Part shown: piece by piece, positions 32,199-64,000 of the stretch | Numbering within the stretch: position 1 is the first letter of the stretch | How the letters are laid out: the number at the start of each line of letters is the position of its first letter | Assembly: GCA_012026975.1 (NCBI GenBank) | Contig: VEPG01000010.1 | Location: forward strand, 1 to 64,000 | From: Desulfuromonas sp. | GTDB lineage: Bacteria; Desulfobacterota; Desulfuromonadia; Desulfuromonadales; BM103 | Length of the DNA: 64,000 nt | Reading direction: 5' to 3' | Program-made: the position numbers and the translations under genes | Notes under the pieces: model-generated | What the model saw: the letters and a program-made list of their open reading frames with translations, nothing else | Databases searched by the model: none | What the model was told of the DNA's origin: nothing

Positions 32199-32228
32199 TT
32201 GACAGCCTGCCGGCTGCTTGGTCAGAAT
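32199..32228 (+). promoter_or_regulatory. Possible sigma-70 promoter of the triheme cytochrome gene
   Basis: TTGACA (32199-32204) is followed after 18 bases by CAGAAT (32223-32228). The -10 is weak but the position, about 45 bases before the start codon, is suitable. Confidence 0.45.
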
Positions 32229-32271
32229 TACAACCGCTTCATCAATATTCATTAACCGGAAGGAGAGAGAA

Positions 32272-43200: not shown

Positions 43201-46200
43201 TAGCCAAGATCAACGGCATGGCGTTGGTGCTCGCCCCACACCGTGGAACCGGTGGTCGCCGGCTGGGTCGCCAGACCGGCGGCACTAACCGGCGGCGTAC
43301 CATGACAGTTGTCGCAGGAGGCGCGGAAACCGACGTTGTGCTCGTGGCAGCGGATGCAATCGGTCTTGTTGTTGTGCAGTTTGTTGGTCAGCGTACTGGA
43401 GTTCTGGCGATGATAGGTGGTCTGGCTGTGGCAAACCTCGCAGACCCGGTTCGACGTGGTGTGGCTGTCGCTGTCGTCGCCGAATTCGGCGGTCCCCTCA
43501 CGGACATCCTGCAGGGCCACGGTACTCCCCGGCAGGGTATCGGCCTTTGCCGTCACCGCCGTGATCACCCGTTTGACGTTGCTGCTGTTCTTTGCATGGC
43601 AGGTGCCGCACTCGAACGCGTCGTACTGGGCGCCCGGGTAAGAGGCGTTCGGCAGCCCCCAGCCGCCGGGCCACTTGCCGTTGAGATCCCAAGTGCCGCC
43701 GGCACCGACGCAGGCCGCCTCGCTGGCATAACCGATCTTGCTGCAGGCAAAGCGCAGGGCGTTGTGCATCAGGTTGCTGTCGACCCAGGAGGTCAGCTGT
43801 ACGGTTTTCTTCCAAGGGGGCGCCGTCGCCTGCGACAGCTGGATGGTCGTCCAGTCGACGACGTCCGGGGCCGTCTCGGTGACAGTCACCTCGATGTCAT
43901 AGCTGGTATCGGTCGTCAGGCTGGTCAGCATGAACTGCACGGTCTGGTTGCGCAAACCGTCAGCGTCGCCCGCCTGGCCGTCGATCACCGGGCCGACCGT
44001 GGTCCAGTTGGCCGGGAGGTCCGGTGCGCTGGTCAGCTTGTAGCGCACCGTGGTCTGGGCATTGTCGTTCTTGTCGCTGCAATAGTTCATTGAGACGGTG
44101 ATCGAGGTCTTGCCAAAGGCTTGCGCCGTGATCTGCAGCGGCCGGATGCGGTTAAGACGGCCATCGAAGGGGACATTGTAGGCTTTTCCCGGGGCCGTCG
44201 CCCCCTCGACGACAGTGCCGCCGTAGATGCGCTTACCGCAGACATTCAGCGCCCGGAAGCGGAAGATCGCCGTCCCCAACTGGTCGACCTTGGGGGTAAA
44301 GGTCGCGCCGTTGGTCTGCCAAGTGCCGCCGTCGTCGAAGGAGACCTCGATCGCGGTGACGCCGACCGTGCCCGTCGCCGTGATGGCAGTCGCCACGGTG
44401 ATTGGCGCGCCCGGAACAGTCCAGGTGACCGTGCTGGTATTATCGATACAGGTGTTGTCGATTGTCACCGAGGTCGCCGCCGACGTGACGTAATTGCCGC
44501 AGTCGGGATCGTTGCCACTGGTGGTGAGCGTCACCCCGGACAACGCGGGGCCGGTACCGCAGGCCGAGGTATCCCAACTGTACTCCCACCGACTCGACCC
44601 GGCGTTCCAGGTCATCACCCCGTTGGAGACGTTGCAGGCGCCGGCGCCGGTAATATTCACCGACATGTTGGTCATGGTCGACGGCGCGGATTCCACGCCG
44701 ACCTGGGCACGCACGACCACCAGGCCCGTCACCGTGCCGCTCGGCGTCGTGGTCAGCGTCGCCAGGTCGGCATCGTTGGTATTGTAGGCAACCGCCCCTG
44801 ACTGCACCGTGATGGTCGCACAATCGCCGGATCCCTGGGCGCGGAAGATCACACTCCCGCTCGCGCAGGGCGGCGGCGTGAAGGTGGAGCCGTTGGCTAC
44901 CCAGGCGCTCCAGTTGGTACCGCCGTCGATGCTCCAGCTGACCTGGATGCCGGTGGCGGTGCCGCCGGCCGTGACCGTCACCGGTCCGGTGATCGGTGCG
45001 GCGGGGCTGGGTGCGGTCAGGGTTTTGGTCTCGCTGCACGCATTCCAGGTGAAGGCCGTCGGCGTCGTGGTGATCGCGGCGCCGCAATCCGGATCGGTGC
45101 CACGGACCTCCAATGTATAAGTGCCGAGGTTGACATAGTCGCCGCAGAGCGAGCCGCCGGCCGCAGTGGCCGGAATTGCTGCAGTCGCCGTCCAGTTGGT
45201 GCAGATCGTGACCGTCGGGTCGGGGGTCGAGGTTACGGCCACCCAGCTGCCGGTGGTCGTCGTAGTCCCCCCGTAATAGACCCGGCAGGTGGTGCCGCCG
45301 GCAAAGGTCGTCGCGGCGATCTCGTACATCAGGCGATGATTGGCCTGGACCTTGCCGCCGTTGACCAACGTGTAGGTATTGAATACCGCGGCCGTAGTTG
45401 CGGCATTTGAAATGTTGGTCACCGTGTTCGAGGTCGCGATCTGGGTTTTGGTGCCGGTCGCCGGATCGTAGTCGTAAAGATGCATGGTGAATACGTCCCC
45501 TGTCGCCGTGGAACGCAACGCCGCGTTGGCGGAAATGGAGGAGAGCGTCGAAGTGTAGGTGTACACCGGCGAATAGCCGCGGATAAGAACCTTGGCGCCG
45601 GCCGCCAGGGTCGAAGGCCGCCAACTGGTTGCCGTGGTGGCGCCGGTCGAGGTCGTGCCGCGATAGGGGATCGTCGTTCCCGTCGATTGGATCGTCGGTA
45701 GGTTCGCCGTGCCGTCGGTGCCGAGGTTGGTGGTCGTATCGCCCTGTAGGTACAGGGTGGTCGTCGTCGGCCCGGCAGGGGCGGCCGTACGGGTCACCTT
45801 GTATTCGAATGTCCCAACATCGCCAGTCGTGGTTTTCAGGTTGCCGGCGTTATACGGCGTGCCGTAGGCGGTCTGGCCGGTCGGGATGGTGATAGTCGAG
45901 GGGTCGGCATCGTAGCAGGTGTACCAGGTGAAATCCTGACCGTTCCCTGGAGCGGTGGTGCCACCGACGTAATAGGTGGTCAATCCGCACTCGGTGTCGG
46001 TGCCGCGCGCGTACAGCTTGTATGAGCTACCGTTGGTCAGGACTGCGGCAGCCTCCTGCGGGTCGGCGTTCCAGTCGATCAGGACAGTTTCCACCGTGGC
46101 CGGCTTCAGACTCATGGCAGTCATGGAATCGAAGGCCGTGTTACTTGCAGTATGCTGGGAACCATCGCTGGCCGCGGTTGTCACGTTGCGATTACGGATA

Positions 46201-49148
46201 TAGACTTGGAAACAAGGGGTATTCGTCGCCGTCGTATATGCCTGCGCCAGCCCTGCGGTCTCCCAACCCGCGGCCCAGGTCGTAATCGTGCGACCGGTCG
46301 TGCCCGTGGTGCTGCGGGCCAGGTTGACAACTTCGATGGCCTGATCGCCGTCGTTGATGGTCAGCGCCGGATTGAATGGGCCGACCGTGGTATTGCCGGC
46401 ATTGCTGTTGTAGTTCTGCGTGCTCGTGAATGGTGTGGTCTGATTCACATTGCCGAACACCGCCGCGCCGACGTAGGTGTAGAGTGCGGTGCCGCCGGTA
46501 ATGGTCACGTTCAGGTTGTCGTCCGGCACGGCCTGGGCGGCCTGGATTCCCGCCTCATCCAGATAGTAGAGATAGGAATGATTCCAGGTGGCGGTCGAAC
46601 TGCCGTCGCCCGCGGCGAGGGTCAAGGCTTGCCCACCATAGGTAACGGATACGGTTTGATTTCCGACAGCCGTCCGCGTCGAAGCGATGGCAACGACCAG
46701 CAGACGCTGGCTGCCGGCGCCCACCGCATAGGCGGCATTGATGGTGCCGGCAGGATAGCCCGCCTGGTTATACTGCTGCGCCCAGGCATTCACCGTCCCG
46801 ATCGTTGCCGGCCCGGTCCCGGTCACACGGTACTGCAGGTTGTTCAGGTCGGTCGCCGTGACAAAGGTGGAACCGTTGAAGTTGCCGCCGGTCGCGGTCG
46901 TGCCGGTGAACGTAAGGGAGGAGAGCACCGACTCGGTGCACAGCGTGAGCTGGTTGCCGGTTGCCGGGGTCTCGCGGTAGTTGGTCCCCTGGTTATCACC
47001 GGCTGTATCGACGGTTCCCTTGTATTCGTAAACCGCGACATGATAGGTCGTGCCCTTAGTCAGACCAGTCACGGAGGTGCTGGTGCCAGTGCCCTTGTAG
47101 ATCACATAGTTGCCGGTGCCTATCTGTGCGCCGCTGCCGAAAACAGTATTTGCCGTGTAGGTGGTATAGGTGCCGTCGGCAGGATCGGCATCGACAGCCG
47201 ACACAGCTTTCATCAGAACGATGACGCCATCACCCGCGGTGCCGCGCGTCCAATTGACAGTCATGCCGGTCGAGGTGACGTTGGTGAAATTGACACCCGA
47301 CGCCTGAGCTGACGGTTCGGTGTAAAAAGAGCCGTCCGGCGAATATGCCGTGCCGACGGAGTTAGTCGCATAACCGCGATAGTAGATTTTGGTGCCGGCT
47401 GTCAGTCCTGTCCGCGCCTGTGTGAATACCCCGGTGGTCGTTCCCCCTGCAGCGACCTGATTGCCGGTCGGGTTCGCAGCCGTTCCCCAGACGGTGCCCC
47501 GAGCGGTCAGGGTCGCGCCGCCGTTGCTGGTAATGTTTGCACCCAAGGTTGCCGTGGTCGCTTCAAGCAGGGTGGCTGTTGGTGTAGTCAGAGTTGGCAG
47601 CCCTGGCGGAGTCTGGTTGCCAGTGGCCGGTGCCTCACGGTAGTTGGTTCCCTGATCGAATCCACTGGTGTCAAGTGCACCCTTGTATTCATAGACCGCC
47701 ACATAATAGGTGGTCCCAGAAGTCAGACCCGTCACCGCGACACTGGTCCCTGCTCCTTTAAAAACCACATAGTTGCCAGTGCCAATCTGGGTGCCGCTGC
47801 CAAAGGCCGCATTGGCTGTATAGGTGCTATACGTACCATCAAGCGGATCGGAGTCGACCGCCGAGGCTGCCTTCATCAGGACGATGACGCCATCGCCGGC
47901 CGTGCCACGCGTCCAGTTGACGGTCATTCCAGTGCTTGTAACTGATGTGAAGTTGACACCTGAAGCTTGAGCAGATGGTTCGGTGTAGAAGGAACCGTTC
48001 GGAGAATACGCCGTACCGATGGAATTGGTCGCATAGCCGCGGTAGTAGATCCTGGTTCCAGCAGTCAGTCCTGTTCGGGCCTGGGTGAACACTCCGGTGG
48101 TTGTGCTCCCTTCGGCAACCTGGTTGCCCGTCGGGTTCGTCGCCGTTCCCCAGACGGTACCTCGAGCGGTGATCGCAACTCCGCCATCGCCGGTTACTTC
48201 AGCACCTAGGGTTGCGGTAGTCGCCTCCAGAAGAGTTGCTGTCGGGTTGGCCAGGGTTGGGGCCGTCGCGGGCCGAATCGCCAAGGTTCCTGCTGCCCAC
48301 GAATCGCTGTTCGACGTTGTGCCTGTCCATGTTGCAGGGTCTAATGCACCGCTAGTCCACGCAATTGATGCAATACTCGCAATGGCTGACATCGTGGTGC
48401 CGGCACCTGGAACAGAAACCGGATTTCCATAACCCGATGGCGGGGTAAAAGCCGTCGGCGAAGCAGGACCTGTTCCGAGACCAACGGTCAGGACATAAGC
48501 ACCCGCTGTTACCGGCGTGATACTCGGGCTGTCCGGTAACGCCACGCCTGCGTTGTTGGCAGCAACAGCACTCGTTGGGGCAACATCCATCGGCGTTGCC
48601 TGGTTGGCTCCACGCCAGACATGAATAGCCGTCGCGCCACCGTTTGCAGCGTTACCGAAACCGCTTACGGTAACGGATGTGTCTGGCGTGCTCCCCATGA
48701 TCTTCCAGTTGACACTGAGGTTGGCATCTCTGGTGTCACTAGCGTATAGGTTAAGAACTTCCGTATAGCCCGCTGTTGTAACTCCGGGAGTGCCATCTGC
48801 ACCACTTGCCCAACCGGTGACCACAATGACCAGATCGCCTGCAGCAGGAGATGTTGCAAGACCTCCCGTCAAAGTGCCATTCAGGGAAACGTTATACGTT
48901 GCGCCGGTGCCATTACCGGATGTTCCACCGACATATTGAAGAGCCGCTTGCGCTGCAGACAACAAACCGACCGCGTTGAAAACAACTGCAAGCAGCACGA
49001 TCAAAGCTACGCGCAAAAATTTTCTCATCCCTCTCCCCTCCCCACCCCGACGCGGCACCGCGTCATCGTGACGTGCCGACCTGGTGACAGCATGACTGCT
49101 GCCGACATGTCCGTTGTTCATCATCTTTTCGCTGTGCCGTTCGTTCAT
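40227..49148 (-). CDS. Giant exported multihaem cytochrome c with FN3-like N-terminal half
   Basis: This is a 2973-residue protein. A signal peptide lies at about residues 41-68 (MRKFLRVALIVLLAVVFNAVG...AQA). Residues to about 1840 are beta-rich adhesin/fibronectin-III-like domains, with a near-duplicate block of about 215 residues at roughly 303-519 and 519-729. The last third (from about 1845) carries some 18 haem motifs: by my count 14 CXXCH, 3 CX3CH and 1 CX4CH, beginning CGTCH and ending CSKCH. CX4CH with CXXCH is typical of Geobacter outer-surface cytochromes. ATG 49148 has AGGAG 8 bases upstream; ATG 49028 also has a good site and a standard signal peptide. It is probably a cell-surface electron-transfer or adhesion protein. 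A GEMM riboswitch precedes it. Confidence 0.9.
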   Translation of the reverse strand: MNERHSEKMMNNGHVGSSHAVTRSARHDDAVPRRGGEGRGMRKFLRVALIVLLAVVFNAVGLLSAAQAALQYVGGTSGNGTGATYNVSLNGTLTGGLATSPAAGDLVIVVTGWASGADGTPGVTTAGYTEVLNLYASDTRDANLSVNWKIMGSTPDTSVTVSGFGNAANGGATAIHVWRGANQATPMDVAPTSAVAANNAGVALPDSPSITPVTAGAYVLTVGLGTGPASPTAFTPPSGYGNPVSVPGAGTTMSAIASIASIAWTSGALDPATWTGTTSNSDSWAAGTLAIRPATAPTLANPTATLLEATTATLGAEVTGDGGVAITARGTVWGTATNPTGNQVAEGSTTTGVFTQARTGLTAGTRIYYRGYATNSIGTAYSPNGSFYTEPSAQASGVNFTSVTSTGMTVNWTRGTAGDGVIVLMKAASAVDSDPLDGTYSTYTANAAFGSGTQIGTGNYVVFKGAGTSVAVTGLTSGTTYYVAVYEYKGALDTSGFDQGTNYREAPATGNQTPPGLPTLTTPTATLLEATTATLGANITSNGGATLTARGTVWGTAANPTGNQVAAGGTTTGVFTQARTGLTAGTKIYYRGYATNSVGTAYSPDGSFYTEPSAQASGVNFTNVTSTGMTVNWTRGTAGDGVIVLMKAVSAVDADPADGTYTTYTANTVFGSGAQIGTGNYVIYKGTGTSTSVTGLTKGTTYHVAVYEYKGTVDTAGDNQGTNYRETPATGNQLTLCTESVLSSLTFTGTTATGGNFNGSTFVTATDLNNLQYRVTGTGPATIGTVNAWAQQYNQAGYPAGTINAAYAVGAGSQRLLVVAIASTRTAVGNQTVSVTYGGQALTLAAGDGSSTATWNHSYLYYLDEAGIQAAQAVPDDNLNVTITGGTALYTYVGAAVFGNVNQTTPFTSTQNYNSNAGNTTVGPFNPALTINDGDQAIEVVNLARSTTGTTGRTITTWAAGWETAGLAQAYTTATNTPCFQVYIRNRNVTTAASDGSQHTASNTAFDSMTAMSLKPATVETVLIDWNADPQEAAAVLTNGSSYKLYARGTDTECGLTTYYVGGTTAPGNGQDFTWYTCYDADPSTITIPTGQTAYGTPYNAGNLKTTTGDVGTFEYKVTRTAAPAGPTTTTLYLQGDTTTNLGTDGTANLPTIQSTGTTIPYRGTTSTGATTATSWRPSTLAAGAKVLIRGYSPVYTYTSTLSSISANAALRSTATGDVFTMHLYDYDPATGTKTQIATSNTVTNISNAATTAAVFNTYTLVNGGKVQANHRLMYEIAATTFAGGTTCRVYYGGTTTTTGSWVAVTSTPDPTVTICTNWTATAAIPATAAGGSLCGDYVNLGTYTLEVRGTDPDCGAAITTTPTAFTWNACSETKTLTAPSPAAPITGPVTVTAGGTATGIQVSWSIDGGTNWSAWVANGSTFTPPPCASGSVIFRAQGSGDCATITVQSGAVAYNTNDADLATLTTTPSGTVTGLVVVRAQVGVESAPSTMTNMSVNITGAGACNVSNGVMTWNAGSSRWEYSWDTSACGTGPALSGVTLTTSGNDPDCGNYVTSAATSVTIDNTCIDNTSTVTWTVPGAPITVATAITATGTVGVTAIEVSFDDGGTWQTNGATFTPKVDQLGTAIFRFRALNVCGKRIYGGTVVEGATAPGKAYNVPFDGRLNRIRPLQITAQAFGKTSITVSMNYCSDKNDNAQTTVRYKLTSAPDLPANWTTVGPVIDGQAGDADGLRNQTVQFMLTSLTTDTSYDIEVTVTETAPDVVDWTTIQLSQATAPPWKKTVQLTSWVDSNLMHNALRFACSKIGYASEAACVGAGGTWDLNGKWPGGWGLPNASYPGAQYDAFECGTCHAKNSSNVKRVITAVTAKADTLPGSTVALQDVREGTAEFGDDSDSHTTSNRVCEVCHSQTTYHRQNSSTLTNKLHNNKTDCIRCHEHNVGFRASCDNCHGTPPVSAAGLATQPATTGSTVWGEHQRHAVDLGYDCNTCHNGWDGPNQMPKNGNLNIGFKVSVNPQFTGAVKQILGGTYEGRTTGGGYTGDTSTTPATVVNTASGDMTCAVYCHGYARPVWNPASTQPCGSCHGGIGTGVGYRAGAPTGLTVGGVTSRDLAGLTTGFQVGKHANHLDDSVYQTGDPCALCHDGFNYNDTTHVNGTVNVKLRQAAKLSSPGTTGGAGLGSSYNANRTCTTECHGATSWDSAAILNCTQSCHNYPPVGVTAGYSTYSSGVIKPVNHTTPNGLQYLKDNHGQCLYCHGWNDNGSGALPITGMTAAQLTAMNGDPAEAPNFTTYSSPGNTIGQHMDGTITLNDDGDANLANDADYDPTTGGCDNAVCHGNDTAHQFTIPGGINSPLKAADIGPGDCGACHTTGVGGATIVTSTSPHTTVTKNGTFTGCGSCHSGHYIKAGGVNIPNNATVGINYVGTQHGGIKLGGPGTHASIATKTTEAEICWGCHDAMGTANVKKATITFTATTIVDSGAGLGVFTVGKPLKVMGSSVVANNKWVTPTAVAAGTLTFPAATFTADATAGEMITLQDFVSEWGKNSYQAGAAAASQYQYDYGSLSTSNWTTATWTSGQAKFGYKTSKIQSTHAANSAGASTVTGTAYAYKESPDNVALIRCSYCHDVHDAVGPNGPPYLRGTWWGNPYEEDGAPQAATAYSVTAPFGAVPRGNGANQTYIGGFFIDINNVRPGTAGAAANGTASANPTATGGTGTGGAWTLADSAGLCTLCHGNNPSTMNWNTTETNMWFSANGHANAVIGGTGNVPAGTAANIFDLRGGTLSTTGATNTPAMHYWGGTATTGVAPGDVGTYGFRNGGNSGYNYTPSLSSVSENNEITTPGTNRWGTITIDAATINSQYHKFSCSKCHNPHASRLPKLMITNCLDTKHNTWDDSYQLNASNGAINTNRSISNWSTAQNCHRVGGIIPANRLIPGDSTTGGPTGNGLYAEPVDTGAVEATKGTGTNYSNRGWNTVTPW

Positions 49149-49320: not shown

Positions 49321-49395
49321 TGTTAGCAACCCGGCTGTCCGCGTGGGACCCGTGGCTTTGCGTCCCCGGGTTGCCCCGGGTTTGCCCGAATTATT
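49321..49395 (-). promoter_or_regulatory. Cyclic-di-GMP (GEMM-I) riboswitch aptamer
   Basis: On the minus strand the conserved GEMM-I elements appear in order. GGGCAAACC is followed by a perfect P1b stem CCCGGG capped by GNRA tetraloop GCAA. Then comes GGACGCAAAGCCACGGGTC, a short loop (CCACGC), and GGACAGCCGGGTTGC. The position that distinguishes c-di-GMP from cGAMP binders looks like G, so c-di-GMP is the expected ligand; this assignment is from memory of the family alignment. It lies about 170 bases upstream of the giant cytochrome start. No clear terminator-type expression platform is visible, so control may act on translation or on RNA stability. Confidence 0.88.
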
Positions 49396-49462: not shown

Positions 49463-52400
49463 TTACTTCGGCAGACTGGTGTGGCAACCCATGCAGTTCG
49501 GCGCATAGGTGGCCGGGTTGATGTTCCCCGCCGAATTCCAGATCGCCGGCTGATTATTGTGGCAAGCAACATTACTGCAGTTGCCACCGGCGAAGTTCGG
49601 CGTGGCGAACGCCGCCTGGCCCTTGTCGTGGCTGGCCGCCGCCTTGTAGCCAGTGATGCGGTTCCAGACCGCCGACAGGATGGTGGTGCCGTCATTGGCA
49701 TCCGCCAGGTTGTCGCGCAGCTGGGCCTTTGACTTGAAGGCGGTCATGTCGACGAAGCTGACCTCGGCGGTGGCGGTGCCGTCGTCAAGGTGTTTCGACT
49801 TGTCGGCCACGGCCATAATCACTTCCGCGGCACCACTGTGGCAGCTGTTGCACTCGGTGCCGAACTTGTTGCGCGCCGAGGTCACGGTGCCGCTGTGGCA
49901 GACGTTGCAGCTGATGGTCGAGCTGTTGGTGGCATCACCGTGCGACTTGGTTGCCGTCGCCGTGGACAGCTTGCCGGTGGCGCCGGAGTAGATATCCTCG
50001 GCATGGATGCCGACCGCGTGGGCGCGGTGCGCGTTGGTGGTCGGGCTGTTGCCGTGGCAGTTGTTGCACGGATCGCTGTCGTCGCTGGCACCCCAGTTGG
50101 TGGCGGCCCAGTAGGCCGTGCGGATCGCATCGTTGCCCACGCCGGCACCCTTGCCGTTGTTATGGCAGGCGTTGTTGACGCAGCTGTCGGTGCCGGCAAC
50201 GTAGTTCACCGTGGCAGCGACGTTGATGGTCGGAGCGGCCCAGCTCGCCGAGCTGAGATGGTTTGCCAGGGTGTTGCCATGGCATTTGGCGCAGGTGAAG
50301 CGATACTCGCCGGCGGTAGAGCTATTGGCAGCCGCAGCGGTGTAGGACGTGGCACCGGCCGTCCCAATGTGGGCGTCGTGCGCGGCGGTTGCCGCGGGCG
50401 CCGCGTCGAAGTGGCAGATCGAACAATTGTCCGCCGCCGAGGGGGTGCGATTCCAGAGCGGCGTCACCTTGGCCGTACCATTGCCGTCCTGGTGACAGAT
50501 GTTGGTGGTGCAGGTACCGGGGCTGGCCGCCTGGGTGACGCCCAGGTTGGTACCGTTGTAGCCCATGGTGCCGAGAACGTTGATGCTGGCGTTCATGTGA
50601 TCAACATTTGACGTCGAACCGTTGTATGGATGGCACTTGGAGCACGCCATGCCGCCAGCGCTGATCATGACGCCATCGGCGACGAAATGCGGCTGATGAC
50701 CCTGGGCATTGTTCAGATGACAGAAGCTGCACTGGCTGTTGGTCGTGGTCCCCCAGGTATAGACACCGCTGGCCGGGGCGCCGTTGCGGCCGTTGTTGTG
50801 GCAGGCGTTGGTGCCGCACGAGCCCTTGACGGTCGGATAAGTGCCGGTATAGGCGAGCGTTACGCTGCCGCTCACGTTGAAGGTGCCGTTGATGTGGTTG
50901 CTGGCCGGCTTGGTGTTACCCGTCCAGCTGGTGGCCGCGTCATGGCAATAGGCGCAGCTGTTGTCCAAGCCGTAGATGCTGCCGCTGAGGTGCGCGGCGT
51001 GGGTCTGCTCGGCCGGGGCGTTGATATGGCACATGCTGCAGACGCTGGTGCTCGCGCCGTACCAGCTGTAGCCGGCCGGGGTGGTCATGTTGTTGTGGCA
51101 GTCGACGGTGGCGCAGGTCCCCTTGTTGGTGTCGCCGGCGGCATCCCAGGCACCGTTGTCGGCCGAACCGTCCCACAGTTTCTTCATGCTGGTGACGTTG
51201 CCCACCGAGTTCAGGTGGTTGATCGTGCCGGCGGGAGCCGGGTGACAGTATTCGCAGATGGCTCGCTGCTGGGCATCGTCGCCCGGCAGGGTGACGCCGA
51301 GCTTGGCCGCCACGATTTCCATATGCTTCTGGTGACGACCGGCACGGTCCGGAGTTGCACCGCCATCCGGCCAGTAGCTGTTGGTGCCGTTGCCGTGACA
51401 GCTGAAGCAGCTGCTGGGGAAGTCACCATAGGCAATCGTCCAGTTGGAGTCGGACATGGTGTGGTTGTAGTTCGACGCGCCGGAGTCGGTCAGGGAGCCG
51501 GTATGGCAGGCCGACAGGCAGCCGAAGTTGGTTTCGTCATACTGGGCACCGGCCGCGGTTCCATGAGCCGCATCCGGGCCGTTCATGTTGATCTTGCCGT
51601 CGCCGTGGCCGAACGGAGTCGGTGATCCCCCGCCCCAGGCTTCTTCGTATTGGTCACTGCCGTAACCGTGGCAGGTCTTGCAGTTGGCGTGCTGAGAGAG
51701 CATCTCGATATCGGTATCGGCATCCGGGCTGTCTTGATGGCCCGGCGCCATGCCGGCATTCCAGGCGTTGTCGACAGTGGTGCCGTCGGTCTTGTTGATG
51801 CCGTCGCCGTGGCAGTTGTCGCAAACCGCGGCGCCCGGGTTGTCGGTGGCGAGAGGTTTGGCATCGACCACGCCGAGCCACTTGCGCGACCACTTGCCGT
51901 TGCCGCTGTTGGCCACGGCGTCGAGATGGCACTTGGCGGCGCACCCGGCGGCACTGTAGCTGTTGATGTTGGCGTTCCAGGTATAGGTGATTCCGCCGGC
52001 GCCAAAAGCCGTCGGGCCGACGGTATTGATGTGCTGGCTAGTAACCGCGGTGCTGTGGCACGAAGTACAGGTCGCGGTCCCCGGCGCGGCTTCAATCGCA
52101 GTGGCCAGGAACTGGACATCGTGGGCCATGGCGGTAGCCGCCGTATGCAGGCCGCTGGTCGGAGCCAGATTGGCCTTCAGACCGGCCTTAGCATTGGTAT
52201 GGCAGTCGACGCAGCCGAGCAGGTTGGCCGCCGTCCAGGTGGCGTCGTTGCCGCCGCCGGCCGCGTTGTCCACGCCGTTGAGGGTGTGACAGGTGTTGGT
52301 GCAGTTCCCGGCCGCATAGGCGGAAACCTTGTTGCCGTCGACTTCGACAATGTTGTTCAGCAGGCTGTGGGTCACTGTATTGGTGCTGTGGCAATCGACG

Positions 52401-55400
52401 CAGCCAGCCGCGATGTAGCCGCCGCCGTGATCGGCGTGCTTGCCGGTTGCCGGCGGGAGGCCGCGGGTCAGCAGGGCGCCGCCGGCGCCGGCCCAGGTCT
52501 TGCCGCTGACGTGGCAGTCCTCGCAGCCAAGCTTGTTGGCGCTGGTCCACGACGGGTTGTCGGCTGCGGCGCCGACATTGTTGTCGAGCCCGTCGAGGGT
52601 ATGGCAGGCGTTGGTGCAGGTCGGCGCGCTGGCGACGGTGGCGTTGCCGCCGAGGTCAACCGTGCCGAAGACGTGAGTGGTTACGGCCTTGGTATGGCAG
52701 TCGTCGCAGTTACCCGGCACGTAGGTGTTGCTGCCGAGGTGGACGGCATGCTTGTTGGTGGTCGGCGTCGCCGCGCTGTCGCTGCCGTGGCAGGTGCCGC
52801 AGGCGCCGTCGCCGTTGTTAAGACCGGCGATGCGTGCGTCGGTGTTGAACCAGTTCGGCGCATTGGCCGGCTTGCCGCCGGTAAAGTTGCCGTGGCATTC
52901 GAGGTTGGCGCAGGTGGAGAATTCAGCAGCGACCGCACCGGCGGCGTTGTACTTCGGACCGAGCTTGGTCCCGGCGGTGGTGGCCGCATCGATCGACAGG
53001 GTCGTCTCAAGCGGAGCCGCGGCCGTGCTGAAGTCGATCACGCCGTTCTGGTGGGCGGCATCGATCGTCGACGGATGACACTGTGTACAATCCATGTTGC
53101 GGCCGTTGGCGGCCGTTTCGCCCATGTGCTTGTCGTGGGCATCCGGCAGGGTTCCCAACGTGTATGTGCCGGTGTAGACGTGGCAGTAGTTGCAGTTGGC
53201 CGAAGCCTGGTCGCCGGCGGTGTACCAGTCGGCCGCGACCGTGGCCGTGGTGTAATGGCAGTCGACGTTGGAGCAGCTGACGTTGCCACCGCTCTGGGTG
53301 ACGGACGAGGTCTGGACGTTGGTCGCGCCAAGGATGTTCTTGAACTTGCTGGTGGTTCCATTCATCAAGTCGGCCGGCGAGGCCGCCTGGTCACCCGAGT
53401 GGCCGCCACTCGGGTGGCAATAGCCGCAGGTGGCGTTTTTCTGTGCCATGGTGGCACCGACGCCGGCAATCTTGGTGATGTGGATGTCGTGAGAACCAAG
53501 ACGGTTCGGCCAGGCGGTACCGTGCTGGGCGGTGCTGTCGGGCCAGTAGTTGCCGGCAGCGGTGTTGCCGTGGCAGTCGGTGCAACCTGCCGCGAACGAT
53601 TCCGGCGTCGATTCGTGCCTGTGGCACTGGGTGCAGACCGAACCCGGATTGTGGCTGGCATCGGCGGTCACGCCGTTGGCCGTGCGGTTGAAATAGCTGA
53701 CCTCGGTCGGGTCGTGACAGACCTGGCAGACACCGGTGTTGTCCGCCTCCCAGTAACTGGCGCGGGCGGCCTTGTCGGTAAAGTTGTTGACCGTGCGGCT
53801 GGCGATGGTGCCGAGCAGCATGACGTCGGTGTTGGTCCCCATTCCATCGCCGTGCGGCTCGTGACAGGTGGCGCAGGCGAGAGCGTCATTGCTGGTGCCA
53901 CCGGCCGTCCTGGTGTTGGCATAATGCGAATTGATCGCATGGCAACTCTTGCAGAAGGCATCGTTGGCCGTCGCACCGCCGGTGAGCATGTTGCTGTCGG
54001 TCACGCCGTCGATGTGATCGGCGGTCAGCGTATGGCAGCCAAGGCAGTTCGGCGAACCGGCGGGGAGAGTCGGGTCACCATGACCGCCGCCGCTGACGTA
54101 GAAACTGTTTTTGGCCGGGGCGGTGCGGGCATTGATAACCGCCAGCACGCCGACATGGCAGGTGCCACAGTCGACGGAAGCCACGCTGGTCCAGATCGGC
54201 TCGCGGTCGTTGCCGGTGGTCTGACCGGCGGTGGCACCGTGGCAGGCGTTGCATACCGCCATGGCGGGCTTGTCGATCACGCGGTTGACGTGCGCGGCGT
54301 GGGTACCGGTCGAGGCGTTGGCACCATGGCACGTATCGCAGCCGATGCCGGCATTCAGGTGCTTGTCATGGGCATCGAGCAGACCGGTTCCGGCCGCAAC
54401 GGCATGGCAGTCGCCGCAGTCGCCGGTGGTCGCGTCATCCCAGTCGGGAGCCTGCTTGACCGCGCCTTTGCCGTTGCTGTGGCAGTAGGTCGTACAGGTC
54501 CCGTCGGTGTTGCCATAGGAACCGGCGCCGAGGGCACCACCCGCGGCGGCGCCGTTCAGGTCGAAAGCATTATCGAAGAAGACATCGGCCTGACCGTCGA
54601 CATGGTCGCCGCCGGCCGCCACCAACGCGGTGTTGCCGGTTGCCGTCTGGCTGTGGCAGACGTTGCAGGCATAGTTTTTGTTGAGGTGCGCGATATGCGT
54701 GGCCGAGTTATCGCGCTGGGCGGGGGCCATGGTGGCTGCGGTATTGCCGTGACAAACGTCGCAGGTCGCGATGTCGCCGGCACCCGTCGCCCAGACCGGC
54801 GCGGTTGCGGAGTACTTCTTGGCACCATTGCTGCGCGGACCGCCGTTGGAATGGCAATAGGTTGTGGAACAGCTGCCGTTGCCGGTCGCCGTGTAGGCCG
54901 GCGTAGACGTATCGGTCCAGGCGATGGTGCCGCTGCCGCTGAAGGTCACGTTCTGGAAGTTGCCGTCCTTGTGGGGAGCGGTTTCGACGTCGACCACGGT
55001 GTAATGGCACTGGTTACAGGCAAAGGAGTAGTCAGTGCCGCCGTTGGTGTGGCGCTTGTGCGGCGTCTGCGATTCATCTTTGAATTTGCCGCTGGTCGAG
55101 TAGTTATAAATGGGTGCGGTCGTGGTGACTGCGTAGCCGGTCGTCCCGCCCGCCGTATTGGTCGTCGGTGCATAGCCGTGGCAGCCGTTGCAGGTCTTGG
55201 TGAAGCTGCCGGTTTGGTGGCTGTGGCAGCCGACGCAATCCGCGGAAGTCGCCGATGCCACGTTGTGCTGGGTCACCGTCGCGGGGATATTATGGCACCC
55301 CTGGCAGTAGCCGGTACCGGAAGCGTTTTTCCATTCGGCCGTGGTCGTCGTGTAAGCCAGGGGATCGGAGTCGCCGGCGGCACCATCTTTGGGCACCCAG

Positions 55401-56365
55401 CCGAGAGCGGTGACCACGGGACGCAGCATGTTGTAGTTGCCGGCCGGCGAATGGCCGCCGTGGCAGTCGAGGCAGCCGAGGGTGGCGTGCGTGCCGCCGT
55501 GCTTTTCATAGATGTGGCAGGTCGTGCAGAGGGCAGAACTCTTGACGCCGGTCGCGTCCGTCGCCACCCGCCCGTAGGAGCGCAGCGCCTTGCCATTGCC
55601 GCCGGAAAATGAAAGATTATCCCAGTTGGACGGGATATCAGGGGTAGTCGGGTCGGAATCGGCAAAATGAACCTGGTGGCAGGAACCGCAGACCACCTTG
55701 CCGCCGGTGAGGCTGATCGGCGTATCGGTATTGATATTGCCGTCGTTTGTCGGCAAGGACCCCACCGCCACATACTTGCCGGGATGGGCCGCCGCCGCAG
55801 TCGCATAGTCGATATCGACCGGGTGGGTGACATTGGTCATGCCGGCCCCCTTGACCCAGGGCACGTGGCAAGCGGTACACATGGTTTCGGCGGAACCGAC
55901 ACCCTTGGTGAGCAATTGCGGGTTGGTGTCGTCACCGTGCGGGTTGTGGCAGCGCGAGCAGGTCACCCGGCCGGTCGACGCCCCCTGGCGGGAATAGAAC
56001 TCCGGATGCGTTATTCGCGAGGGGGCCGTTGCCCCGGCCGCCGTTTGAGTATCCGGCCCCGACCAGTTGTGCGAGGTCTGCCCCCTGCCGGCAACGACGG
56101 AGGCGTTGTTGCCCATGGCATTACTGGAGTCCAAGGCGCCAAACGCCGAATTTGTCGACCCGGTCGTCCCATCGTTCAGGAGTGTGTTCAACTCCCCGGA
56201 ATGGCACGTCAGGCAAACGTTGCCCCCGCCGAGGTCGGCAACCGACAGGGTCGGGATGTGGCAGTTCTTGCAGTCGAAGGTATGGACTACCACCGCGCCG
56301 GCAAGTTGCGGCAGGGTAAGTAGAGCCGCCAATACCACTGCAGTGAACATCGCTCTCGGTTTCAT
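49463..56365 (-). CDS. Very large exported multihaem cytochrome c, about 59 haem motifs
   Basis: The 2300-residue precursor has a signal peptide (MKPRAMFTAVVLAALLTLPQLAGA), and haem motifs begin within 10 residues of it. By my count there are 46 CXXCH, 5 CX3CH and 8 CX4CH motifs, spread evenly to the C-terminus (CMGCH). They form repeating modules of CX4CH-HNNG and CXXCH-GN types with many distal histidines (AHxxHL). No other domain is evident, so it is likely an extended haem wire on or outside the outer membrane. AGGAG lies 7 bases before ATG 56365. It follows a tetrahaem gene and precedes the giant FN3 cytochrome on the same strand. Codon composition gives long open frames on the opposite strand, which are not genes. 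Confidence 0.93.
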   Translation of the reverse strand: MKPRAMFTAVVLAALLTLPQLAGAVVVHTFDCKNCHIPTLSVADLGGGNVCLTCHSGELNTLLNDGTTGSTNSAFGALDSSNAMGNNASVVAGRGQTSHNWSGPDTQTAAGATAPSRITHPEFYSRQGASTGRVTCSRCHNPHGDDTNPQLLTKGVGSAETMCTACHVPWVKGAGMTNVTHPVDIDYATAAAAHPGKYVAVGSLPTNDGNINTDTPISLTGGKVVCGSCHQVHFADSDPTTPDIPSNWDNLSFSGGNGKALRSYGRVATDATGVKSSALCTTCHIYEKHGGTHATLGCLDCHGGHSPAGNYNMLRPVVTALGWVPKDGAAGDSDPLAYTTTTAEWKNASGTGYCQGCHNIPATVTQHNVASATSADCVGCHSHQTGSFTKTCNGCHGYAPTTNTAGGTTGYAVTTTAPIYNYSTSGKFKDESQTPHKRHTNGGTDYSFACNQCHYTVVDVETAPHKDGNFQNVTFSGSGTIAWTDTSTPAYTATGNGSCSTTYCHSNGGPRSNGAKKYSATAPVWATGAGDIATCDVCHGNTAATMAPAQRDNSATHIAHLNKNYACNVCHSQTATGNTALVAAGGDHVDGQADVFFDNAFDLNGAAAGGALGAGSYGNTDGTCTTYCHSNGKGAVKQAPDWDDATTGDCGDCHAVAAGTGLLDAHDKHLNAGIGCDTCHGANASTGTHAAHVNRVIDKPAMAVCNACHGATAGQTTGNDREPIWTSVASVDCGTCHVGVLAVINARTAPAKNSFYVSGGGHGDPTLPAGSPNCLGCHTLTADHIDGVTDSNMLTGGATANDAFCKSCHAINSHYANTRTAGGTSNDALACATCHEPHGDGMGTNTDVMLLGTIASRTVNNFTDKAARASYWEADNTGVCQVCHDPTEVSYFNRTANGVTADASHNPGSVCTQCHRHESTPESFAAGCTDCHGNTAAGNYWPDSTAQHGTAWPNRLGSHDIHITKIAGVGATMAQKNATCGYCHPSGGHSGDQAASPADLMNGTTSKFKNILGATNVQTSSVTQSGGNVSCSNVDCHYTTATVAADWYTAGDQASANCNYCHVYTGTYTLGTLPDAHDKHMGETAANGRNMDCTQCHPSTIDAAHQNGVIDFSTAAAPLETTLSIDAATTAGTKLGPKYNAAGAVAAEFSTCANLECHGNFTGGKPANAPNWFNTDARIAGLNNGDGACGTCHGSDSAATPTTNKHAVHLGSNTYVPGNCDDCHTKAVTTHVFGTVDLGGNATVASAPTCTNACHTLDGLDNNVGAAADNPSWTSANKLGCEDCHVSGKTWAGAGGALLTRGLPPATGKHADHGGGYIAAGCVDCHSTNTVTHSLLNNIVEVDGNKVSAYAAGNCTNTCHTLNGVDNAAGGGNDATWTAANLLGCVDCHTNAKAGLKANLAPTSGLHTAATAMAHDVQFLATAIEAAPGTATCTSCHSTAVTSQHINTVGPTAFGAGGITYTWNANINSYSAAGCAAKCHLDAVANSGNGKWSRKWLGVVDAKPLATDNPGAAVCDNCHGDGINKTDGTTVDNAWNAGMAPGHQDSPDADTDIEMLSQHANCKTCHGYGSDQYEEAWGGGSPTPFGHGDGKINMNGPDAAHGTAAGAQYDETNFGCLSACHTGSLTDSGASNYNHTMSDSNWTIAYGDFPSSCFSCHGNGTNSYWPDGGATPDRAGRHQKHMEIVAAKLGVTLPGDDAQQRAICEYCHPAPAGTINHLNSVGNVTSMKKLWDGSADNGAWDAAGDTNKGTCATVDCHNNMTTPAGYSWYGASTSVCSMCHINAPAEQTHAAHLSGSIYGLDNSCAYCHDAATSWTGNTKPASNHINGTFNVSGSVTLAYTGTYPTVKGSCGTNACHNNGRNGAPASGVYTWGTTTNSQCSFCHLNNAQGHQPHFVADGVMISAGGMACSKCHPYNGSTSNVDHMNASINVLGTMGYNGTNLGVTQAASPGTCTTNICHQDGNGTAKVTPLWNRTPSAADNCSICHFDAAPAATAAHDAHIGTAGATSYTAAAANSSTAGEYRFTCAKCHGNTLANHLSSASWAAPTINVAATVNYVAGTDSCVNNACHNNGKGAGVGNDAIRTAYWAATNWGASDDSDPCNNCHGNSPTTNAHRAHAVGIHAEDIYSGATGKLSTATATKSHGDATNSSTISCNVCHSGTVTSARNKFGTECNSCHSGAAEVIMAVADKSKHLDDGTATAEVSFVDMTAFKSKAQLRDNLADANDGTTILSAVWNRITGYKAAASHDKGQAAFATPNFAGGNCSNVACHNNQPAIWNSAGNINPATYAPNCMGCHTSLPK

Positions 56366-56586
56366 GGGCCAACTCCTAGCTGTTGCGGCGGATCGCATTT
56401 TCGCGGATGAATCCCGCTCTTAATAAACGAAGATCAAGTCTTTTAAGTCTATATTGCTGCTGCTGTTTACTCTCGTTTAAGCTACAGGCCTGCAATCTTA
56501 AAAAAACCTATTATAATACCCTAATAAACTGCTCGTCTTCCGTCCATTCAAACCATTGCAAACATGTTCATAGCTCGCCGGTCAGC

Positions 56587-57366
56587 TTATTTGTTGTGGC
56601 AGGCAAGACACAGGTTACTGCTATCGTTGGGACGAATCAGAAACGGCGTATAATCGGCATCGGTCACATAATCAACATGCGGATCGTGGCAGGAGGAACA
56701 TTCCACCCGGTTGTCGGTGCCAAAGAAACGGACACCTTCACCGAGCCAAGCCTTAGCCGTGGCAAGTGGCCGCAGCTGATTTTCCTTGACGCCACCAACG
56801 CCATATTCCGAACTGGAGAGCACCGAAGCATAGCTGAAGGAAATCGGATGGTCGTCGCGCAAATCGCCAAACGCCCCGGCATTGCCGCGCGAACCACCGA
56901 TCTTGGCAGCCGGATTACCGTCTAGCAACGGCTGAATTGGGACATCATCGTTAAAGGTAAAGGTGCTTCGGGGATTGCGGCCAAGCGTGTTTGAGGGGTT
57001 GAGCAGATGCATGACCGAGATGCTGCCATCGTGGCAGGCCATACACAGCAACGATTCATCATTGATGGCGCGAGAGGCCGACAACCCTTGCAAATAGGTT
57101 GAAAGGGTGGCGCTGTTATAGTGAGTCCACGGCCCGGTTGCCAGACTCCGGTTCCACAGGGGACCCTCAAGACGCCCGCCGTGCGGGGTGTGACAAAAGA
57201 TGCAAACTTCGCTCTCATCCGACTTGTACATTGCGTACGGTGCCGAACTTGACATGTTGTGGATGGTATTCTTGACATTGGCCAAACCTTTGGCCCAGAC
57301 GCTGCCCGCACCTAACAAAAGAAGTGTTGCGACCAGAAGAGAGAGAGTTAAGCGTGCGCTTTTCAT
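56587..57366 (-). CDS. Periplasmic or surface tetrahaem cytochrome c
   Basis: The 259-residue precursor has a signal peptide (to about residue 25, GSVWA). Four CXXCH motifs follow: CIFCHTPHG, CMACHDGSI, CSSCHDPHV and CLACHNK. The spacing with TPHGG and DPHV resembles the doubled-CXXCH cytochrome family (PF09699-like), found beside large electron-transfer cytochromes. It lies 29 bases downstream of the NHL protein gene and 221 bases upstream of the 59-haem gene, so it is probably co-transcribed with the former. GAGG is about 10 bases before ATG 57366. Confidence 0.9.
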   Translation of the reverse strand: MKSARLTLSLLVATLLLLGAGSVWAKGLANVKNTIHNMSSSAPYAMYKSDESEVCIFCHTPHGGRLEGPLWNRSLATGPWTHYNSATLSTYLQGLSASRAINDESLLCMACHDGSISVMHLLNPSNTLGRNPRSTFTFNDDVPIQPLLDGNPAAKIGGSRGNAGAFGDLRDDHPISFSYASVLSSSEYGVGGVKENQLRPLATAKAWLGEGVRFFGTDNRVECSSCHDPHVDYVTDADYTPFLIRPNDSSNLCLACHNK

Positions 57367-57394: not shown

Positions 57395-60205
57395 TCAATT
57401 CTTTAGAAGAGCTGCAAAATCCCAGACTGCCTTGCGAACTTCCCCTGGAGTGAGCATGCCGAGTAGCGTCGCTGCCGATTTTTTCGCCAAGCTATAAGTG
57501 CCGGCCGCCAGCTCGGTACGTACCTGACCGGCCTGTGTCAGTGCCGCCGGATTCGCCGCCGCAACCAGGAGAGTAATCTCGTCCCACTCCGTCAACAGAT
57601 ATTCATTGAAAGCATCGGCATATGTCCGGTCGGCACTCGGCCGGTAGATCAGTCGGCCGCCGACCTTGCCAAGGATCATATCCTGGCCCTTGACACCATT
57701 GACGCCTGCAACCGTTACCCCAAACACGTTGCTAAACGGCAAATTGCCGGCGGCGGTAAAAGCGCCACTCGTGGACAGATCGTTGCGATAGATTGCGGGA
57801 ATTCCGCCAACAGTCACCAGCAGGTCACGGTCGCCGTCGGCATCCCAGTCGACCGGGGTGATCTGGGCGGCACCCGCCACCTGGAAGAGCGCCACGCCCG
57901 CTGCCAACTGCGGCGCAGCATCGCTCCCCTGGTTGTAGAACACCGAGACCTGGCCGGCAGCATTGCCGACCACCAGATCTTTCTTGTCATCGCCGTTCAG
58001 GTCGACAATGGCCGGGAATGCCCCGCCGCCCACGCTCAGGACGCTGCCATCGACCGTCAGATCCTGACCGGCACCGAACGCCGGCGCCGTCTCGGTACCG
58101 CTGTTCGTGAAGAGCTTCACCGTACCGTCGGCCAGACCCACCAGCAGATCCTTGCGACCGTCGTTATCCCAGTCCGCCACGAAAGGCACCGCGCCCGGCA
58201 GCACCGGCAGACCGAGACTGCGCTTGGGCTGGAAGGTCAAAGCGGTTGCCGACTGCAAAGCCATTACCGGGAAAAGGGTCAGCTGGCCCGAGGCGTCGCC
58301 GACCAGCAGGTCGAGGCTGCCGTCATTGTCATAATCGACCAGGAATGGGGCGGCTTTCGGTGCCACTGCAAGCGAATCGCCCCCGTTGATGGTCCCGGCC
58401 GCAAATTTTGACAATTTGCAGGCAGGCAGCAGGTTGGCCGTCACCTTGGCGCTCGCTCCCTCGGCCAACTCTACCTGCGTGACTGACGGGTCGAAGCCGG
58501 CGTGCTCGACGACAACCGAGTAGTTGCCGGCCGCAAGGTCACGCAGCTCCAACGGCGCCAGACCGACGAACTGCCCGGCGAAACCGTGATTGCCATGCAG
58601 GTAAACCTTGGCATCGGCAACGTTGGCAGTCACTCTCAGCAGCATGACATCGTAGACGAAGCTGCCGGCGATACTCGGTTCCGAGAAGGTGCCATCGCCA
58701 TCCCGGGCCGCTACTCTCCAGAAATAAGTCGAACCAGCCACCAGCTTGTCGTAGCCGGCAAGTTCGGTCAGACCAACGGAAGTTCCCGGAAACGCCTGCC
58801 TCAGCAGGAGCTTGGTAAACGTATTGTTGATAGCGATTTCCAACCGATAGGCAAGCCGCGTGTCAGTCGGATCGGGATCGCTGGAGGCTCCCCAGCTCAG
58901 CACACCGTCGTCGCCAAGCTTTTCTCCGGCCAACGGCGACACAAGCGCCGGGGTGGTCGGCGCCTCGTCGGTCGCATTGACCACGAACGATGCCGGCGCA
59001 CTGACCGGCGCGGACGCCTCGGCGTCACTCGCCTGAACCGTCCACACGTAGGAGCCGTTCTCAGCCAGGATGTCGGCGGGAAGGGCAACGCCGGTCGCGC
59101 TGGTCGTGGTCGAGTAAACCGTGGCAGCACCCTGCTTGACGGTTACCGCGTAGGTCAGGGCATCCCCGTCGATATCGGTCGCGGCATTCCAGCTCAAGAT
59201 CGGCGTCATGCTCGCCACCACCGTCCCGCCAACCGGCGACACCGGCTGGGCGGCAGACGGCGCACTGTTGACCCGCACCGGGGTCGAACCGCCATCGATG
59301 CCAAAGATATCGACACCGGAGCCATCGGAGACAAACAGACGCTTGGTCGCCGGGTCATAGACCGCATCGACGGGTGCCGTCAGCTTTCCGGAAAGAGCGC
59401 CGAAGTCACCAAGGAGGGTCGCAAACGCATCGTCGAACACCCGCAGAGCCACCGGCAGATAGCGAAGCACATAGGCACGGCCGCCGACTTGACCTTCGAA
59501 GGCAATGCCACGGCCGGTGTGGTTGTCGGTGCCGTACAGAGTTGCATTCAGGACACTGGATTGCAAGGCGCCGGCCGTATCGAAAACCTGCAGGCGGGGA
59601 ACCGCGGCTTCGTTATTGGCGACATAGACGCGTGCCGCGAGAGGATTGACCGTAAGCGCACCAATGCTGGTGAAAAGGCCGGCGGTGTTGCCGGCTCCGC
59701 CGAAAGCCGACTTGAAGGTGCCGTTCGGAAAGAACACCTTGATGTTGAACTGACCAACCCCTGTATCGGCGACAAAAACATAACCGTCGGCATCCAGGTC
59801 AATTTCCGCGGGGTCGCCCAGCACTACGCCCGACAGGTAGCCGCCGACACTGCCGTCGGCCACATTGACGATGGCGACTGCCTTGGACTTGGTCGAGACG
59901 TACAGGGTCTGCCCGTCAGGGGTTACCGCCACCCCCTTGCCGCTGGCCTTCCCTTCCAGGAAGGACGCCACCTGCCGGCCATACCGGTCGTACTTGAGGA
60001 CGGTACGGGCAACCTGGTCGGCCACATAGAGATTTCCCTGCCCGTCCACGTCGATTGCGCGAGGGCTGACCAAGCTGCCGCCTGACAACTCGCTCAACCA
60101 GGTAATCTGCGGGACAGTGACAGCACCGGCCGGACTAAGCCATATGGCATTGAGCAGCAGTGAAATCACCACTGCAAGGCGTGCTACAGGGAAGAACCGG
60201 TTCAT
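57395..60205 (-). CDS. Exported NHL/FN3/PEGA/FG-GAP surface protein of the cytochrome cluster
   Basis: The 936-residue protein has a signal peptide (to about residue 28). An NHL-type beta-propeller spans about residues 30-305 (SPRAIDVDGQGNLYVADQVARTVLKYDRYGRQV, VFVADTGVGQFNIKVF). Two fibronectin-III-like modules follow (about 310-510), then a PEGA-like unit (about 520-590, VYLHGNHGFAGQFVGLAPLELRDLAAGNYSVVVEHAGF). An FG-GAP propeller region (about 610-850, DYDNDGSLDLLVGD, DWDNDGRKDLLVGL, DWDADGDRDLLVTV) completes it. Such NHL proteins accompany outer-surface cytochromes in Geobacter-type clusters. AGGAGG precedes ATG 60205 by 7 bases. The predicted sigma-54 promoter lies upstream. It heads an operon with the tetrahaem gene. 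Confidence 0.9.
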   Translation of the reverse strand: MNRFFPVARLAVVISLLLNAIWLSPAGAVTVPQITWLSELSGGSLVSPRAIDVDGQGNLYVADQVARTVLKYDRYGRQVASFLEGKASGKGVAVTPDGQTLYVSTKSKAVAIVNVADGSVGGYLSGVVLGDPAEIDLDADGYVFVADTGVGQFNIKVFFPNGTFKSAFGGAGNTAGLFTSIGALTVNPLAARVYVANNEAAVPRLQVFDTAGALQSSVLNATLYGTDNHTGRGIAFEGQVGGRAYVLRYLPVALRVFDDAFATLLGDFGALSGKLTAPVDAVYDPATKRLFVSDGSGVDIFGIDGGSTPVRVNSAPSAAQPVSPVGGTVVASMTPILSWNAATDIDGDALTYAVTVKQGAATVYSTTTSATGVALPADILAENGSYVWTVQASDAEASAPVSAPASFVVNATDEAPTTPALVSPLAGEKLGDDGVLSWGASSDPDPTDTRLAYRLEIAINNTFTKLLLRQAFPGTSVGLTELAGYDKLVAGSTYFWRVAARDGDGTFSEPSIAGSFVYDVMLLRVTANVADAKVYLHGNHGFAGQFVGLAPLELRDLAAGNYSVVVEHAGFDPSVTQVELAEGASAKVTANLLPACKLSKFAAGTINGGDSLAVAPKAAPFLVDYDNDGSLDLLVGDASGQLTLFPVMALQSATALTFQPKRSLGLPVLPGAVPFVADWDNDGRKDLLVGLADGTVKLFTNSGTETAPAFGAGQDLTVDGSVLSVGGGAFPAIVDLNGDDKKDLVVGNAAGQVSVFYNQGSDAAPQLAAGVALFQVAGAAQITPVDWDADGDRDLLVTVGGIPAIYRNDLSTSGAFTAAGNLPFSNVFGVTVAGVNGVKGQDMILGKVGGRLIYRPSADRTYADAFNEYLLTEWDEITLLVAAANPAALTQAGQVRTELAAGTYSLAKKSAATLLGMLTPGEVRKAVWDFAALLKN

Positions 60206-60323: not shown

Positions 60324-60340
60324 TGCAATCTTGATACCAA
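60324..60340 (-). promoter_or_regulatory. Predicted sigma-54 promoter of the NHL-cytochrome operon
   Basis: On the minus strand TTGGTATCAAGATTGCA has GG and GC separated by exactly 10 bases and the TTGCA -12 box. Transcription would start near 60313. The gene for a sigma-54 activator ends about 35 bases upstream. Confidence 0.6.
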
Positions 60341-63378: not shown

Positions 63379-63981
63379 CTATCGCTTGGGAACAGCTGGA
63401 GTGGTGTTGCCTTGAACCTTGTTTCTCGAACCTTGCTGCGCCGGAGTTTCGGCCTTTTTCGGCGGGACAAAAACAAATTCCCATTCACGATAAACCGTTT
63501 TCCCCTCGAGATTTTCCAGTCCCTTGGGGAAGCCGGCCTGCTGGAACGGCTCAAGGTCGCTGGTACTGCGCACCCCGATGATTTTTTCCGCCGGATCCTT
63601 GACCGGTTCCCACTCCTTGCCGGTCATCGGGTCGGGATAGAGACGCCGCAGGTGACGGACGGCTCCGGGAAAGCGCGGGTCCTTCAGCAGATCTTCGAGC
63701 TTGGCGGGGAACATCTGCTGGGCACCGTGCTTGACATTGTAATAGCTGCCGATCGCCTGCTGGTACTGCTGCCCGCGCCACAGCAATTCGGCTTCGCGCT
63801 CACGCTGCATCAGCGCCCCCAGCGACTGGCTGGCCTTGGTGGCGGCAAGGCCCAGGAGAACGATCAGGACGAGGACGGTCAATAACACCGTGCCGTTTTG
63901 GCCAACGGTTCGACGGTTTCCATGCAGGGGCGCACTGCTGTGCGCCCGGCGGGCATGTCCGGCCGCGTCCCGAGGGCGCAT
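63379..63981 (-). CDS. Type II secretion pseudopilin-like protein, start uncertain
   Basis: Recognisable sequence begins at about residue 28 with GQNGTVLLTVLVLIVLLGLAATKASQ, a prepilin-like hydrophobic helix after a glycine. It continues with REREAELLWRGQQYQQAIGSYY and the pair HLRRLYPDPMTGKEWEPVKDPAEKIIGVRS, typical of Geobacter pseudopilin-like secretion proteins. The usual Glu at +5 is not seen. The first 27 residues come from a repeat and may not be real, but no ATG, GTG or TTG that keeps the glycine motif is available further in. The frame is also open to the window edge. It may help export the surface cytochromes nearby (inference). Confidence 0.7.
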   Translation of the reverse strand: MRPRDAAGHARRAHSSAPLHGNRRTVGQNGTVLLTVLVLIVLLGLAATKASQSLGALMQREREAELLWRGQQYQQAIGSYYNVKHGAQQMFPAKLEDLLKDPRFPGAVRHLRRLYPDPMTGKEWEPVKDPAEKIIGVRSTSDLEPFQQAGFPKGLENLEGKTVYREWEFVFVPPKKAETPAQQGSRNKVQGNTTPAVPKR

Positions 63982-63993
63982 GCAATGCGCTCC
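63928..63993. repeat. Palindromic repeats overlapping the 5' end of the pseudopilin gene
   Basis: GGGCGCAC/GTGCGCCC (63928-63947) and the near-palindrome GAGGGCGCATGCAATGCGCTCC region (63972-63993) surround the only in-frame ATG. The style matches other repeats of the window. Confidence 0.65.
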
Positions 63994-64000
63994 TACGAAT

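Follow-up and report, generated by a model that had tools for sequence, protein, structure and literature searches.

A 59-haem cytochrome in a conserved gene block of Desulfuromonas sp., a probable single-chain carrier of electrons outside the cell

Introduction

What single proteins with dozens of haems are for is an openly stated question (PMC7096707), and it is raised anew by one gene of a Desulfuromonas sp. draft genome. The gene, called here gene A, lies in the first 64,000 nucleotides of contig VEPG01000010.1, the stretch of DNA that was analysed and that we call the window. An initial annotation, made from the letters of the window, described its product as a cytochrome of about 2300 residues and suggested a long protein-based electron wire or an extracellular filament subunit. 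The reading that we favour, with a probability of about 0.72, is that gene A encodes a secreted single-chain giant cytochrome, which would carry electrons outside the outer membrane in extracellular respiration.

Results

Gene A is an intact frame with 59 haem motifs

Gene A (49463..56398, minus strand) is open for 2311 codons without interruption. A regular-expression count returned 46 CXXCH, 5 CX3CH and 8 CX4CH motifs, 59 in total, which are the very numbers obtained by hand in the initial annotation. Each CH pair was assigned to one motif, and all 118 cysteines of the protein (2 x 59) fall inside the haem motifs with none to spare. Composition-preserving shuffles of the protein (n = 2000) contained a mean of 0.97 motifs and a maximum of 6. 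Reading of the translation by eye revealed a likely Sec signal peptide (56294..56365, minus strand; aa 12-35, MKPRAMFTAVVLAALLTLPQLAGA) with an AGA cleavage site and no lipobox cysteine. Since this signal peptide comes after Met12, the in-frame Met12 at 56365 is a likelier start than the beginning of the frame at 56398.

The source genome is a 2.83 Mb draft in 116 contigs, and doubt has been expressed in a review as to whether giant cytochromes carry their full haem complement (PMC7096707). Both points speak for an explanation in which gene A is an assembly artefact, a decayed gene or a protein made mostly without haem. We consider this highly improbable, as several observations weigh against it. 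A related genome, separately assembled (G001), encodes an orthologue of 2336 aa that also has 59 motifs and is 69% identical to gene A over the aligned residues, with 57 motifs sharing alignment columns and a dN/dS of about 0.40 (simple Nei-Gojobori count). Moreover, homologues of gene A exist in single-contig genomes, and conservation is far higher at the ligand residues than elsewhere in the protein. The independent 59-motif frame and the dN/dS value thus indicate that gene A is intact and speak against the frame break by sequencing errors considered at the outset. At four of the five CX3CH positions in gene A, the aligned G001 orthologue has CX4CH or CXXCH; the odd spacings therefore behave as haem sites. 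For a different protein, MmcA, mass spectrometry has demonstrated that haem is attached at CX3CH and CX4CH (PMC11024163).

Gene A combines an N-terminal haem module with tandem tri-haem units

The only domain matches of gene A were to c-type haem families (Cytochrome_C7, MtrC-type and GSu_C4xC__C2xCH), in agreement with the earlier statement that the protein has no non-haem domain. The match to TIGR01904 (CxxxxCH/CxxCH domain) reached 167.6 bits for a cut-off of 27 and was spread over nine stretches. Alignment delimited a conserved N-terminal haem module (55079..56293, minus strand; approximately aa 36-440) in which the CXXCH and distal His columns are invariant. Self-comparison together with a ligand map then delimited tandem tri-haem units at 51944..53275 (minus strand; aa 1042-1485) and a second tri-haem tandem array at 49838..51115 (minus strand; aa 1762-2187; self-comparison of 1715-1895 with 1815-1997). 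Most units of the first array follow the order CX3-4CH - CXXCH - HxxH - CXXCH - H. According to the ligand map, a unit spans about 100 residues and mostly holds exactly three spare His, and identity between adjacent units reaches 46% (1212-1300 versus 1316-1404). These repeats were not seen by whole-protein self-BLAST but were revealed by windowed self-comparison. Much of gene A beyond the N-terminal module is built of such tri-haem units. The protein has 67 non-motif His, 59 of which are retained in the G001 orthologue; because they track the haem number along the chain, they fit bis-histidine coordination of the haems throughout.

Structure prediction gave models unusable for haem stacking, both for aa 36-1200 (AlphaFold2, 40 sequences, mean pLDDT 50.3) and for aa 1112-2311 (28 sequences, mean pLDDT 37.7), and Foldseek returned zero matches for the first of them. 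A phmmer search of gene A against the PDB also had zero matches, so that single-sequence search finds no solved relative. Profile searches produced weak matches to many different multihaem structures, which we read as haem-motif similarity. The N-terminal half matched OmcS in this way (E 8.8e-6), at a level comparable to other multihaem proteins, and this match too could reflect nothing beyond haem-motif similarity. If the haems stack at the spacings of other multihaem proteins, by extrapolation the chain could be several tens of nanometres long.

The closest named relative is a predicted extracellular cytochrome

In genome G033, almost certainly that of Desulfuromonas soudanensis, we found a homologue colinear with gene A (34% by BLAST, residues 8-2187 against 7-2195) in a frame of about 2800 aa. 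Its 58 CXXCH and 11 CX3CH motifs add up to 69, which is the published count for DSOUD_0664 of D. soudanensis WTL, a cytochrome predicted to be extracellular (PMC4914508); the two are thus almost certainly the same protein, with 75 motifs once CX4CH is included. Among the 59 haem sites of gene A, 58 align with haem sites of this homologue. In a global alignment, 98% of Cys and 92% of His were conserved versus 44% overall, the first two figures being somewhat generous as such an alignment favours Cys/His matching.

The N-terminal module was detected in 81 of the 194 genomes of the class (E <= 1e-40). Outside the order, the frames bearing it are shorter, often 1000-1200 aa, and the named module-bearing relatives from the scan are all Desulfuromonadales, Desulfuromonadaceae, Desulfuromonas, Geoalkalibacter or Deltaproteobacteria. 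An origin from a mobile element was rejected, with zero matches among phages or plasmids.

Several further cytochrome frames stood out. Some relatives (L020-L029 and similar) reach about 3600-4060 aa and hold 61-72 motifs; they also have several CH pairs that fit none of the three motif spacings and might be haem sites of longer spacing. At G008:C150:195001-235000 (L044, L045), at least six cytochrome frames stand in a row with the same N-terminal module at the start, most with at least 17 motifs. More large cytochrome frames, with 32, 26, 61, 24, 43, 18 and 16 motifs, share a single contig (G000:C42:55142-105986, L001-L004). Its 61-motif gene encodes 2743 aa, has internal repeats spaced 1458 bp and contains a 300-nt stretch in two copies with 97% identity, and has thus grown recently through duplication.

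Gene A belongs to a conserved block with regulators and a haem-bearing partner

All genes of the block around gene A lie on the minus strand. Gene G (63379..64000, running past the window to about 64038) heads the block; it was judged pseudopilin-like by eye from its hydrophobic pilin-like N-terminal segment and had zero Pfam matches. It is followed by gene F (61853..63325), a histidine kinase (HisKA/HATPase/HAMP) whose N-terminal sensor part carries a single CXXCH (CAPCH), and by gene E (60376..61749), a sigma-54-dependent response regulator (Sigma54_activat 243 bits, Response_reg, HTH_8). Then come gene C (57395..60205; 936 aa), a secreted NHL-like/PEGA/FG-GAP protein assigned by Pfam and synteny, and gene D (56587..57366; 259 aa), a tetrahaem cytochrome with 4 CXXCH and a Paired_CXXCH_1 match. 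On the other side of gene A, gene B (40227..49148; 2973 aa) has an FN3-like N-terminal part, a region of about 1800 residues, and then 18 haem motifs in its C-terminal part (aa 1847-2864); its product is possibly an adhesive or matrix-binding redox protein.

Where the contig is long enough, Desulfuromonadales relatives keep the order G, F, E, C, D, A, often with B. In 23 distinct related loci, the giant gene is immediately preceded by the tetrahaem gene D. Gene B homologues adjoin gene A homologues at 7 loci and likewise combine FN3-like domains with haem motifs (15-24). The genes beyond G are metabolic, without visible link to the block.

In 16 of the 23 distinct loci the giant frame is complete, with 41-75 motifs in 1636-4064 aa. 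This range bears on whether gene A could polymerise end to end into a nanowire, as OmcS, OmcE or OmcZ do. Known filament subunits of this kind are small and hold four to eight haems. A fixed-size subunit is therefore unlikely for gene A, given the nearly twofold spread in haem number across its syntenic homologues, and the filament suggestion of the initial annotation is not supported. Extracellular multihaem cytochromes of the same bacterial group do build filaments (PMC9473688), and the weak OmcS match of the N-terminal half, which may stem from the haem motifs alone, could point the same way; on balance we hold a gene A filament to be unlikely.

A sigma-54-type element and a riboswitch suggest regulated expression

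Upstream of gene C lies a sigma-54-type -24/-12 element with correct spacing (TGGTATCAAGATTGC, 60325..60339, minus strand), which was first spotted by eye and then supported by conservation. TGG-N8-TTGC occurs upstream of gene C in 20 of 25 loci, or 18 of 23 without two genomes fetched twice, compared with 2.5% when the regions are shuffled and 1 of 25 when the opposite strand is read. A scan with the textbook sigma-54 consensus allowing 2 mismatches gave matches at chance level. The conserved element, taken with regulator E, makes a sigma-54 promoter upstream of gene C likely.

Gene B is preceded, at a distance of 173 nt, by a GEMM-I (c-di-GMP-I class) riboswitch aptamer (49321..49395, minus strand) identified with Rfam (RF03167, 63.8 bits for a gathering score of 59; RF01051, 63.2 bits for 35). 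The source genome contains 20 GEMM-I aptamers, and such aptamers precede genes with 61, 43, 34, 18 (gene B) and 8 haem motifs; the 34-motif gene is a 985-aa frame on C61. In 12 loci of relatives no riboswitch reached the gathering score (0/12), which gives no support to the riboswitch as a family-wide trait. Genes for surface attachment typically have riboswitches of the cyclic-dinucleotide type. A comparable arrangement exists in Geobacter sulfurreducens, whose extracellular cytochromes are controlled by GEMM-Ib switches through cGAMP (PMC6456294). For the aptamer before gene B, c-di-GMP and cGAMP are the candidate ligands.

These features of gene B also bear on a possible role of gene A as an electron reservoir (capacitor) or as redox-active biofilm matrix instead of a directed wire. 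In such a role it would store charge from one acceptor contact to the next, and the FN3-rich gene B product might anchor it in the matrix. The very high haem load, the variable length, the FN3-like domains of gene B and a riboswitch of the type usual for surface attachment genes would all suit it. However, capacitor and wire are non-exclusive and the same sequence features are predicted for both, and we regard the reservoir as a tenable but doubtful replacement for the wire.

Gene A is probably exported beyond the outer membrane

No porin family match was found by Pfam in genes G-F-E-C-D-A-B, a search that a barrel outside the Pfam families would escape. Together with a plain Sec signal as the only export signal and the lack of an outer-membrane anchor, this would agree with a periplasmic or envelope-spanning wire leading from inner-membrane quinol oxidation to the surface. 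Such a location seems improbable to us, given that its relative DSOUD_0664 is predicted to be extracellular (PMC4914508), that a holo-protein of about 268 kDa (calculated) would be awkward for the periplasm, and that a three-haem carrier is already encoded in the window. The latter is a small tri-haem frame at 32203-32541 (plus strand) that resembles periplasmic PpcA-type cytochromes. Genes for a type II secretin and for cytochrome maturation of the ResB type are also present in the source genome, and the pseudopilin-like product of gene G may hint at how the outer membrane is crossed, which is suggestive only.

Discussion

The secreted single-chain carrier is our preferred explanation for gene A. 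Its homology to DSOUD_0664, the almost completely conserved haem ligands, the signal peptide and the operon context give good support to a long protein that carries electrons at the cell surface or beyond it. The initial proposal is thus supported in part, for the electron carrier but not for the filament. The preferred explanation is strengthened by the high-molecular-weight cytochromes of D. acetexigens, with up to 86 motifs, which are differentially expressed in EET growth on electrode or iron-oxide (PMC12133095). In the mechanism that we propose, the product of gene A would be exported beyond the outer membrane, where about 59 bis-histidine haems, set in the N-terminal module and then in the tandem tri-haem units, would give electrons an unbroken hopping path if fully loaded. 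Iron oxide, an electrode or a partner cell could accept the electrons, and the same chain might double as a reservoir for up to 59 of them. The haem-bearing kinase F and the sigma-54 regulator E would control the expression of gene A, and gene B would additionally respond to a cyclic dinucleotide through its riboswitch.

More tentatively, the family of gene A could be a length-tunable, genetically encoded single-molecule wire, an alternative to polymerised nanowires that has a dedicated sigma-54 control responsive to redox state and, in gene B, a haem-bearing partner that binds the matrix. If this speculative picture is true, tri-haem units gained or lost would set the length of the wire. The modular repeat and the natural series of lengths, from 41 to 75 motifs, enable wire, capacitor and filament to be tested against one another. 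The likely sigma-54 promoter, the haem-bearing sensor and the local riboswitch give a handle on the operon that suggests when the product of gene A should be made and which partners matter, and most of these handles carry over to the cultured relative D. soudanensis.

Among known systems, DSOUD_0664 is the nearest: it is colinear with gene A (34%), shares 58 of its 59 haem sites and has E, C and D homologues upstream and a B homologue downstream, but it is longer, with extra units in its second half. The giants of D. acetexigens, likened here by description only, are the same kind of protein in the same bacterial group. The 113-haem cytochrome of Methanoperedenaceae (PMC7082337), also compared by description, is likewise a giant multihaem protein tied to extracellular electron transfer, but is archaeal. 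Gene A matches the TIGR01904 / PF09698 cytochromes of the Geobacter type, a domain family without the giant architecture or the operon. It resembles OmcS, OmcE and OmcZ as an extracellular multihaem electron carrier, its own location being predicted; these are small polymerising subunits, whereas gene A is one long chain whose length varies among relatives. The porin-cytochrome conduits (Pcc/Ext/Mtr) have an outer-membrane beta-barrel gene, and none was recognised in the block from G to B.

Ordinary outer-surface cytochromes have 6-12 haems, and in comparison with these the haem number of gene A is indeed far above the ordinary, as was first claimed; the claim does not extend to the published giants, which have 58, 69, 86 and 113 motifs. 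A record haem number was accordingly rejected, as 86 and 113 exceed 59. Gene A belongs to this already known class of giant cytochromes. In the literature searched, which left subscription papers mostly outside, we found no description of a conserved operon with a kinase, a sigma-54 element and an FN3-haem partner. Compared with the giant cytochromes themselves, it is thus the conserved, tightly regulated operon around gene A that appears to be less described.
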